Shown here piece by piece: positions 9,370-45,933 of a DNA stretch of 64,000 nucleotides (its first letter is position 1; each line of letters starts with the position of its first letter). The stretch covers positions 1-64,000 of the forward strand of contig JAILFU010000163.1 of the NCBI GenBank assembly GCA_024697405.1, in the 5' to 3' direction. The DNA comes from Prevotella sp. GTDB lineage: Bacteria > Bacteroidota > Bacteroidia > Bacteroidales > Bacteroidaceae. A program made the translations under genes and the position numbers. The notes beneath the pieces are model-generated. The model saw only the letters and a list, made by a program, of their open reading frames with translations, was not told where the DNA came from and did no database searches.

Positions 9370-10479
9370 TTACAGCTCACTTTCTTTCATCCGCTCTGCA
9401 TTCTCAGCCACGGTCAGGGCATCAATCATGGCCTGTATGTCGCCGCCAAGGAATCCCTGCAGGTCGTGGGTGGTATAGCCGATGCGGTGGTCGGTGACGC
9501 GGCCCTGCGGGAAGTTGTATGTACGGATTTTCGCTGAGCGGTCGCCTGTGGAGACCAGCGTCTTGCGGCGCGAGGCGATATCATCCATGTACTTCTGGTG
9601 CTCCTTGTCGTAGATAAATGTATAGAGACGTGAGAGGGCGCGCTCCTTGTTCTTCGGTTGGTCGCGGGTCTCGGTACACTCAATGAGAATCTCTTCGGTC
9701 TCGCCTGTGTTCGGGTTCTTCCACATGTAGCGCAGACGCACGCCTGATTCCACCTTGTTCACGTTCTGGCCTCCGGCACCGCTTGAGCGGAAAGTGTCCC
9801 ACTTGATTTCACCCTCGTTGATGTGTACCTCGAACTTGTCGGCTTCTGGCAGTACGGCCACTGTGGCAGCTGAGGTGTGCATACGTCCCTGCGTTTCGGT
9901 TGCGGGTACGCGCTGCACGCGGTGAACACCGCTCTCGTACTTCAAAGTGCCATAGACATCGGCTCCGCTCACGGCAAAGTCTATTTCCTTGTATCCGCCC
10001 ACGGCCCCCTCGCTGACATCGGTCACCGAAAGCGTCCAGCCCTTTGAATCGCAAAAACTCTTGTACATCTTGAACAGGTCGCCGGCAAAGAGGCATGCCT
10101 CGTCGCCGCCCGTTCCGGCCCGGATTTCCATCTGTACATTCTTTGCGTCTTCAGGATCCTTGGGAATGAGGGCAATCTTGATTTCCTCTTCCAGCTTGGG
10201 CTGCAGTTCCTCGTTTATGGCCAGCTCCTCGCGGGCCATTTCCTTCATCTCTGGGTCGTCCTCGTTGGCCAGAATGTCCTTTGCCTCCTTGATGCCGTTC
10301 AGGCAGGCGATATAGCGGCGGCGGGCATCCATGATGTCGCTCAGGTCTTTGTATTCCTTCGTCAGTTTGACGAAACGCTGCTGGTCGCCTATGACATCCG
10401 GGTCGGTAATCAGTGTGGATACCTCCTCAAAACGGGCCTCCAGTCCGTCCAGTTTCTCTAAAATGCTATTGTTCTCCAT
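9370..10479 (-). CDS. prfA: Peptide chain release factor 1
   Basis: Recognises UAA and UAG and triggers peptide release. The start is placed at MENNSILEKLDGLE; the ORF track's extra 21 N-terminal residues would be encoded across the promoter itself (TACCTTTG box just upstream). The GGQ motif sits at about 234-236 (GAGGQNVNKVES), and the RF1-type codon-recognition region lies upstream of it. Length of 369 residues is normal. Confidence 0.97.
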   Translation of the reverse strand: MENNSILEKLDGLEARFEEVSTLITDPDVIGDQQRFVKLTKEYKDLSDIMDARRRYIACLNGIKEAKDILANEDDPEMKEMAREELAINEELQPKLEEEIKIALIPKDPEDAKNVQMEIRAGTGGDEACLFAGDLFKMYKSFCDSKGWTLSVTDVSEGAVGGYKEIDFAVSGADVYGTLKYESGVHRVQRVPATETQGRMHTSAATVAVLPEADKFEVHINEGEIKWDTFRSSGAGGQNVNKVESGVRLRYMWKNPNTGETEEILIECTETRDQPKNKERALSRLYTFIYDKEHQKYMDDIASRRKTLVSTGDRSAKIRTYNFPQGRVTDHRIGYTTHDLQGFLGGDIQAMIDALTVAENAERMKESEL

Positions 10480-24124: not shown

Positions 24125-24325
24125 TCTTTTCCGTAAGGGTTCTTTTCTTGTTTCTAGCGCGTGCGCGTATAAATGCGCGCGAGAAAAAAGGTGCTACTCG
24201 TGCTACCGAACGTATTAATAGGGTGATTATCAGGTGGTTGTCGGTAGCTATAAGTGTCTTTTTGGCGCTACCGAAGGGGCTACACTGATTTTAACTTGAG
24301 CTACCGGTTTCTCTATCTACTTTGC

Positions 24326-24354
24326 CGTATGTAACATGACAAATGTTACATACG
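24326..24354. repeat. Perfect 12-bp hairpin in element A
   Basis: CGTATGTAACAT, loop GACAA, ATGTTACATACG. A C-C mismatch and then TTTG/CAAA pairing extend the stem. Confidence 0.9.
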
Positions 24355-24383
24355 CCAAAGTGCACGGAGTCAGTTTGCTGGAG

Positions 24384-24425
24384 AATACTGCCGCCGTTTG
24401 GAAAAATACTGCCGCCGTTTGGAAA
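24384..24425. repeat. Two exact 21-bp tandem units
   Basis: Both units read AATACTGCCGCCGTTTGGAA plus A, followed by a degenerate third (AACGGAGGCACCTTTTGGA). The same unit with two or three changes, in the opposite orientation, occurs at 45723-45764. Confidence 0.95.
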
Positions 24426-24593
24426 AACGGAGGCACCTTTTGGATGAATTCTCTAGAGAATTTAAACGCATGCGGCCTGTAGCTACTGCTGTAGCACCAA
24501 AGTAGCTAAAAAAACAGTTATGTGGCTACCGACAAGTGCCTGATTTTCATTATGCTGGCTTCTAAAGTAGCTCGGGTAGCGCCTTTTTTCCGT

Positions 24594-24692
24594 GCCTATA
24601 TTACGCGTGTGCGCGCGAGAAGTGATTCGACAGCCCCGCAACATCGGGCATCTCCAGCGCCTATATTACGCGTGTGCGCGCGAGAAGTGATT
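24594..24692. repeat. 34-bp exact direct repeat with 31-bp spacer
   Basis: Copies at 24594-24627 and 24659-24692 begin GCCTATATTACGCGTG and end CGCGAGAAGTGATT. A related CG-rich string (GCGCGTGCGCGTATAAATG) lies on the other side of element A near 24155. Confidence 0.95.
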
Positions 24693-24915
24693 GGGGCGGG
24701 CTGGAAGCCCTTGCAACGGACGAAAGCCCATTGTAACTGCGTGTGCGGGTGTTGGGGATTCTTCGTTGAGGTTTGGAGTGTTTAGGATGCGTGTCAGGTT
24801 GTGCTCTGCCCAATATGGGCTAACAGACCTTCGCACTGCTCTTCCTGCATAGTTTGGCATGGTTTTTGCAAGGATAAGGTAAAAAGTTGAAATCATATAA
24901 TTAAAAGTAAGAATT

Positions 24916-45495: not shown

Positions 45496-45680
45496 GCAAT
45501 TTATAGAACAAGCCTTCATAAAAAGGTATTTATACAGAAAGTCTGCAACTCTGCATCTTTTCCAGATAAACGACTGGCTTGCAGGATGTTGCTGGTAGTA
45601 CACTTTGTGTAAACCCTGCACTCAACCCTGCACCGCCTCAGACAAAAATCGTTCCCCAAATAACTGACACCAATCCGGGC

Positions 45681-45707
45681 TTTTCGTCCCAAGCCTTGGG
45701 ACGAAAA
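45681..45707. repeat. Perfect 13-bp palindrome in element B
   Basis: TTTTCGTCCCAAG, one central C, CTTGGGACGAAAA. It lies directly next to the 21-bp repeat block, as the hairpin does in element A. Confidence 0.92.
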
Positions 45708-45722
45708 AATACTGCCAGTATT

Positions 45723-45764
45723 TTTCCAAACGGCGTTAGTATTCTTCCAAACGGCGTTAGTATT
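45723..45764. repeat. Two 21-bp tandem units in element B
   Basis: TTTCCAAACGGCGTTAGTAT plus T, then the same starting CTT. The reverse complement is AATACTAACGCCGTTTGGAA, differing from the element A unit at two positions (AA for GC after AATACT). Confidence 0.93.
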
Positions 45765-45933
45765 TCTCCAAATAGAGTGTCTCTATTTCCCTTTCACAAG
45801 CGGAGATTATTTAGAATGAGTCTCGTTTAGTGCAGAGTATGCAGAGTTGCAGGGTTTTTCCGGGTTCAGTATATTATATATATGTGAAACCCTGCATTTA
45901 AAGTCTGCACAGCTCTATCTATGACTTTCGGGC

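Follow-up and report, generated by a model that had tools for sequence, protein, structure and literature searches.

Within the window, by which we mean the whole analysed stretch of 64,000 nucleotides of Prevotella DNA, two non-coding elements, A and B, were found to share one architecture: arms in which a short word recurs in convergent orientation enclose an array of 21-bp units and one or more palindromes (Table 1). That each locus holds two units and a weaker third, with a perfect palindrome beside them, had been proposed from the letters alone (referred to here as the sequence-only reading), and direct reading of both elements confirmed it. The accompanying estimate of about a dozen word copies per element holds for the short form of the word but not for the long one: GCTAC/GTAGC occurs 13 times in A and GGTAGC/GCTACC only 6 times, while B contains 10 copies of CTGCA/TGCAG and only 4 of CCCTGCA/TGCAGGG. 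The arms of A, previously given as 67 bp, are actually about 100 bp long. Element B has a complete left arm and an incomplete right arm. Just outside A, a 34-bp segment with an alternating CG-rich tract is doubled (24596–24629 and 24661–24694), and similarly doubled tracts flank the elements in L048, L094 and L109. A further element with the word of A is located just past the right end of the window (L186; 68.4–68.65 kb of contig C46).

Table 1. Sequence features of elements A and B, in window positions; word offsets are counted from the outer end of each arm.
Feature	Position	Strand	Basis
A, left outer alternating purine-pyrimidine tract, GCGCGTGCGCGTATAAATGCGCGCGAG	24157–24182		read directly
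A, left arm, GCTAC at offsets 0, 9, 51 (inverted), 74 and 86	24183–24284	+	arm HMM, E 8.5e-18
A, imperfect palindrome ACTTTGCCGTATGTAACAT-gacaa-ATGTTACATACGCCAAAGT	24319–24361		opposite-strand self-match, 84%
A, array of 21-bp units, two identical and a degenerate third	24384–24446	+	
A, the two identical units, each AATACTGCCGCCGTTTGGAAA	24384–24404 and 24405–24425	+	read from sequence
A, perfect palindrome AATTCTCTAGAGAATT, preceded by the degenerate unit; also upstream of congener VapE genes	24447–24462		
A, right arm, GTAGC at offsets 0, 9, 51 (inverted), 74, 85 and 97	24477–24590	-	arm HMM, E 7.5e-19
A, right outer alternating purine-pyrimidine tract	24591–24622		read directly
B, left arm, CTGCA at offsets 0, 8, 37 (inverted), 73 and 85	45539–45632	+	arm HMM, E 6.7e-19
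B, two perfect palindromes, TTTTCGTCCCAAGCCTTGGGACGAAAA (45681–45707) and AAAAATACTGCCAGTATTTTT (45705–45725)	45681–45725		sequence
B, 21-bp units, two good (45717–45734, 45738–45755) and one weaker (45759–45776)	45717–45776	-	
B, right arm, outer part only, CTGCA at offsets 0, 8 and 17	45793–45856	-	arm HMM positions 1–64, E 5.9e-5

A and B are two of about 100 gene-less intergenic elements in this Prevotella genome. When up to three mismatches were allowed, the 21-bp unit was matched 435 times (196 + 239) in the 3.55-Mb genome, compared with 5 matches (1 + 4) to the reversed pattern; the window itself contains 3 matches, where 0.05 would be expected. Base-by-base reading of 1.38 Mb of the genome with profile models of the arms yielded 94 arm matches, which form 43 convergent pairs of the same type, 35 of them with the word GCTAC of A (G type) and 8 with the word CCCTGCA of B (C type). 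Scaling up from the 38 unit clusters present in the first, unbiased 1.09 Mb gives about 120 clusters genome-wide, and exact word pairs number 121 (G type) and 36 (C type) in the whole genome. The family has a common plan, in which two convergent word arms of ~100 bp flank an array of 21-bp units, often together with a palindrome, over a total of about 0.45 kb. Wherever they were read, the elements were intergenic. Successive units are spaced by 21 bp in 157 of 160 cases, and the arrays may run in either direction (24 versus 19 elements). The palindrome cannot be taken as a constant part, as had been supposed: a listed palindrome motif was counted 28 times over the 43 arm pairs, so that a good part of the elements lack it.

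Further words occupy the same layout around the same 21-bp core, namely CTGTCAT (in L041) and CCTACAT (in L045, L052 and L091), which brings the number of word types to at least four and bears out the earlier suggestion of a single non-autonomous family whose core is constant and whose word changes. One element (positions 10443–10788 of L255; 56.4–56.8 kb of contig C122) is a hybrid: its left arm is of the G type, its right arm of the C type, and the two share a single 21-bp array. The types can therefore recombine, plausibly through the common core, and such recombination would explain how the core stays fixed while the words are exchanged. Beyond the arm ends, weak conservation extends for another 25–30 bp, where the longest alternating run has a median of 15, versus 6 in shuffled sequences. 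In these outer flanks purines and pyrimidines alternate, in CG-rich tracts for the G type and TA-rich tracts for the C type, which could be Z-DNA or unwinding sites. Other repeats are found in and around the family as well. A G-type core in contig C218 (L261, 8538–10798) is interrupted by an insertion that carries a UPF0236/ISLre2-like transposase gene, indicating that other mobile elements land in these repeats, and another dispersed repeat, CCTCCCCTT-AAGGGGAGGGG ... GTCAACTGCTATATTGTTGCC, is situated beside many elements (for example in the flanks of L056, L240 and L244) and sometimes inside one.

The genome was also searched for VapE (PF05272, a family earlier called VirE), and seven genes were retrieved. 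One of them, in contig C105 (L241/L244), has its start 73 bp beyond a complete element of the G type that has 21-bp units and AATTCTCTAGAGAATT; another, in C193 (L242/L245), is directly behind a C-type element with palindrome and units; and a third, in C171 (L237/L246), is preceded by an element whose word is TTGCACC and which has a related repeat. Among the VapE genes studied in this genome, each one whose upstream sequence could be read and whose word type was clear is directly preceded by an element. The word and core of A match those of the element upstream of the L244 gene, and the word and core of B match those upstream of the L245 gene. A connection to VirE-like genes, which the sequence-only reading had offered as a guess, is thus borne out by the VapE genes that stand directly behind complete elements of the G and C types here. 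Neither an integrase nor a transposase was found beside the gene-linked modules. Gene-less copies far outnumber the gene-linked ones. We considered whether the former derive from decayed VapE modules and rejected this source, since for 42 of the 43 arm pairs no VapE-like sequence is present within 1.5 kb; they are therefore not remnants of such modules. No clear gene-less copies were found for the TTGCACC-type VapE. A VapE gene truncated by the start of contig C148 (L248), and therefore lacking its upstream region, is a possible partner of the gene-less CCTACAT-type elements. The VapE profile matches the solved structure 7pds, annotated as 'Similar to D. nodosus vapE' (E 1.4e-13). The G- and C-type proteins lack the primase domain of the congener proteins, so that a host primase would be needed. 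Assignment to a known defence system was rejected because VapE had no match in PADLOC.

In order to compare modules across the genus, we use 'congeners' for the other Prevotella genomes sampled. The BT4734-like/VapE type is present in 38 of 60 sampled Prevotella genomes, and upstream of many congener VapE genes there are again convergent word arrays, each module having its own word (ATGTAG, AGTAGA, TGTCRG, GTGAYGG, GGTGGTT, TGACGTT, TGGAAG or GTGAAGG). The association of VapE with equivalent word arrays thus extends to congeners. The 16-bp palindrome of A recurs upstream of VapE in 7 of 20 congener modules, and in several modules an HU-HIG gene is divergent from VapE. For five congener modules (L217, L218, L219, L221 and L223) the convergent-array score was higher than that of every one of 200 dinucleotide shuffles; several other congener modules scored no better than shuffles, with L230, L231 and L234 scoring 0, and L244 was not significant by this strict score either. 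The spacing of the words is conserved across modules although the words differ. Counted from the outer end, they stand at offsets 0, 9, 51 (inverted), 74 and 86 in A, at 0, 7, 54 (inverted), 72 and 83 in L306, at 0, 8, 52 (inverted), 62 and 82 in L302, at 0, 8, 73, 83 and 94 in L218, and at 0, 7, 73, 84 and 95 in L221. Successive inner words are about 11 bp, or one helical turn, apart, as expected of protein sites on one face of the DNA.

If a cognate protein reads the word, as the sequence-only reading had anticipated, part of that protein should vary together with it, and the C-terminus of VapE does so. For 22 VapE proteins, pairwise identities were determined separately for the helicase domain and for the C-terminal ~75 residues. 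Pairs with the same word (n = 12) are 85–96% identical in the helicase domain and 70–100% identical in the C-terminus, whereas in pairs that have different words at a helicase identity of 80–91% (n = 22) the C-terminus is only 42–68% identical. The C-terminal contrast has a Mann-Whitney p of 1e-6, a value that overstates the significance because the pairs are not independent, but the contrast still holds at equal helicase identity. Thus L217 and L218, both with ATGTAG, are 86% identical in the helicase domain and 100% in the C-terminus, while L217 and L219 (AGTAGAG) are 87% identical in the former and 51% in the latter. Two more same-word pairs, from additional modules used as a check, gave 96 and 96% (L308/L310) and 87 and 70% (L306/L312). 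The Rep and Cch2 proteins of staphylococcal pathogenicity islands (SaPI) use their C-terminal domain to bind iterons that adjoin the genes encoding them (PMC7581432). Taken together, these comparisons suggest that each word is probably read by its cognate VapE through the C-terminal domain.

Outside this genome the family is scarce. None of 149 congeners has more than 4 matches to the 21-bp unit, and in these genomes the arm word pairs are absent except for isolated matches. A G-type element with the core of A was identified in two other Prevotella genomes (L154 and L155); in the remaining congeners the sole match to the G-arm word is flanked by an HU-like gene on one side and a BT4734-like/VapE gene on the other. 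The genome of L155 was considered as that of a same-species strain, but its genes are only ~67% identical and it represents a separate species. Gene-less copies with the word ATGTAG are present in three congeners (G032, G014 and G031). Genome G097 and that of L155 each hold one G-type element, yet the single VapE detected in each has a different word; both are MAG assemblies, in which true loss of the matching VapE is inseparable from its absence from the assembly or from mis-binning. Searches of phage and plasmid records gave no match to A, and viral contigs contained no match to the unit pair, to the G-type arm or to a relative of the G-type VapE; we therefore rejected a phage or plasmid origin.

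In the reading that we consider probable, A and B derive from VapE modules: they would be non-autonomous copies of the cis-acting, origin-like element of such modules, devoid of a gene and multiplied in trans in a REPIN-like manner. Less easily reconciled with this reading are the G-type elements of G097 and of the L155 genome, whose detected VapE has another word, the lack of clear gene-less copies for the TTGCACC type, the congener modules that score no better than shuffles, the incomplete right arm of B, and the missing primase domain of the G- and C-type proteins. By analogy with SaPI-type helicases, the word would be an iteron that the cognate VapE, a putative self-loading hexameric helicase, binds with its C-terminal domain and on which it would load. 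One helicase would then be loaded from each of the two opposed word arrays at the core that they enclose, where the phased 21-bp array and the palindromes may serve as opening or accessory sites, and the whole element would be a candidate replication origin. The gene-less copies may have been multiplied in trans through VapE-driven copying, much as REPINs depend on RAYT. The entry of a copy into a new site is the least certain step, since the modules come with neither an integrase nor a transposase. The element boundaries fade over ~30 bp, and neither an empty site nor a target-site duplication could be obtained, because the sampled congeners, the nearest relatives among them, have too little synteny at the flanks. 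A dyad in the middle of the arms of the G and C types had also raised the possibility of a tyrosine-recombinase attachment site, with arm-type words around a core dyad; this was dropped, as the modules have no integrase and the dyad was not seen in ATGTAG modules.

Elements that are short, non-coding, intergenic, numerous, inverted at their ends and restricted to few species might also be classical MITEs, their arms being terminal inverted repeats moved by an IS transposase and VapE having been captured beside some copies; among MITEs, BrickBuilt of Porphyromonas gingivalis contains a 23-bp minisatellite (PMC4596501). However, none of the arm pairs in the 1.38 Mb read has a transposase of its own between the arms; in one element an IS simply sits in the core. 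The words, moreover, are placed well inside the arms at the spacing of protein sites, are specific to each type and co-vary with VapE, and equivalent arrays precede VapE in other species. We therefore regard a MITE origin as quite unlikely. Slightly less so, but still unlikely, is that VapE has been domesticated and that the elements are sites used by the host, either regulatory or nucleoid sites or decoys that capture the initiator of an invading replicon, and that they persist because they are selected and not because they are copied. Their intergenic position and conserved word spacing would agree with such a role, as would the encoding of an HU-HIG protein divergently from VapE in congeners and the lack of any sign of extra mobile genes alongside VapE. 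On the other hand, ~100 copies in one species against next to none in 149 congeners is what a spreading element would leave, and the swaps of word type and the G/C hybrid fit element turnover.

The long inverted arms might instead have been selected for base pairing in a structured RNA or hairpin, and the single strand of A does fold strongly (z -10.2). Such folding is expected of any inverted repeat, and arms paired in the same element share 71.3% identity, compared with 70.1% for arms of different elements, a level matched or exceeded in 68 of 1000 permutations. The arms therefore do not co-vary beyond their common words. As there was no Rfam match either, the regulatory-RNA reading entertained earlier was rejected, and selection for pairing in general appears very improbable.

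The reading as gene-less copies of a VapE-linked origin has several consequences. VapE genes are common in Prevotella and often paired with HU-HIG, and their role there is not accounted for in the literature searched, where nothing relevant was found on VapE/HU-HIG modules with iterons in Bacteroidetes. The present analysis provides VapE with a likely substrate as well as with a readable site and a domain for specificity, and it accounts for a large repeat family as origin-like elements. An origin-and-initiator pair seems to have spread through the chromosome in the manner of a transposon. If copying in trans is true, a replication initiator would here form the basis of a REPIN-like partnership. 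More tentatively, and with some doubt on our part, the family may be selfish chromosomal DNA of a class propagated by a replication initiator alone: VapE would recognise the iteron arrays by way of a rapidly changing C-terminal reader and place copies of the gene-less elements at new sites, with no transposase or integrase involved, and new pairs of word and reader would have arisen repeatedly. The matched reader domains and words form a natural series from which a DNA-recognition code could be learned.

Several known systems resemble the Prevotella family in part. BOX elements of pneumococcus are likewise modular, a variable number of core repeats standing between two flanks, but we know of no cognate initiator and no word swapping for them. 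The alpha protein of phage P4, acting with ori1 and crr, is a primase-helicase initiator with iterons in both orientations; P4 is a phage satellite with a full genome, and to our knowledge it has no dispersed gene-less copies. BrickBuilt, present in 19 copies with IS5-type terminal repeats (PMC4596501), is similarly intergenic and species-restricted, with inverted flanks around a tandem minisatellite core (23 bp, versus 21 bp here), but it has no cognate helicase, whereas the Prevotella arms are arrays of swapped words. In the REPIN/RAYT system several word types coexist in a genome, each with a single-copy cognate gene beside one copy and many dispersed gene-less copies (PMC3116915). The Prevotella family is alike in its word types, in the cognate gene beside a copy and in the dispersed gene-less copies; the cognate of REPINs, which are short hairpins, is a Y1 transposase, whereas here it is a replicative helicase serving iteron arrays of ~0.45 kb. 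As in SaPI Rep/Cch2, the protein is a VapE/D5-type helicase homologous to the VapE-like protein of known structure, and in the gene-linked copies, though not in the gene-less A and B, short iterons adjoin the initiator gene. C-terminal specificity is described there (PMC7581432) and is suggested here by co-variation of C-terminus and word. The SaPI iterons are downstream of the helicase gene and the Prevotella element is upstream; unlike those of SaPI, the Prevotella arrays are long, inverted and symmetric, are not accompanied by an integrase or an island, and exist as dozens of gene-less chromosomal copies. None of the SaPI origin, REPIN/RAYT and BrickBuilt combines all of these features.
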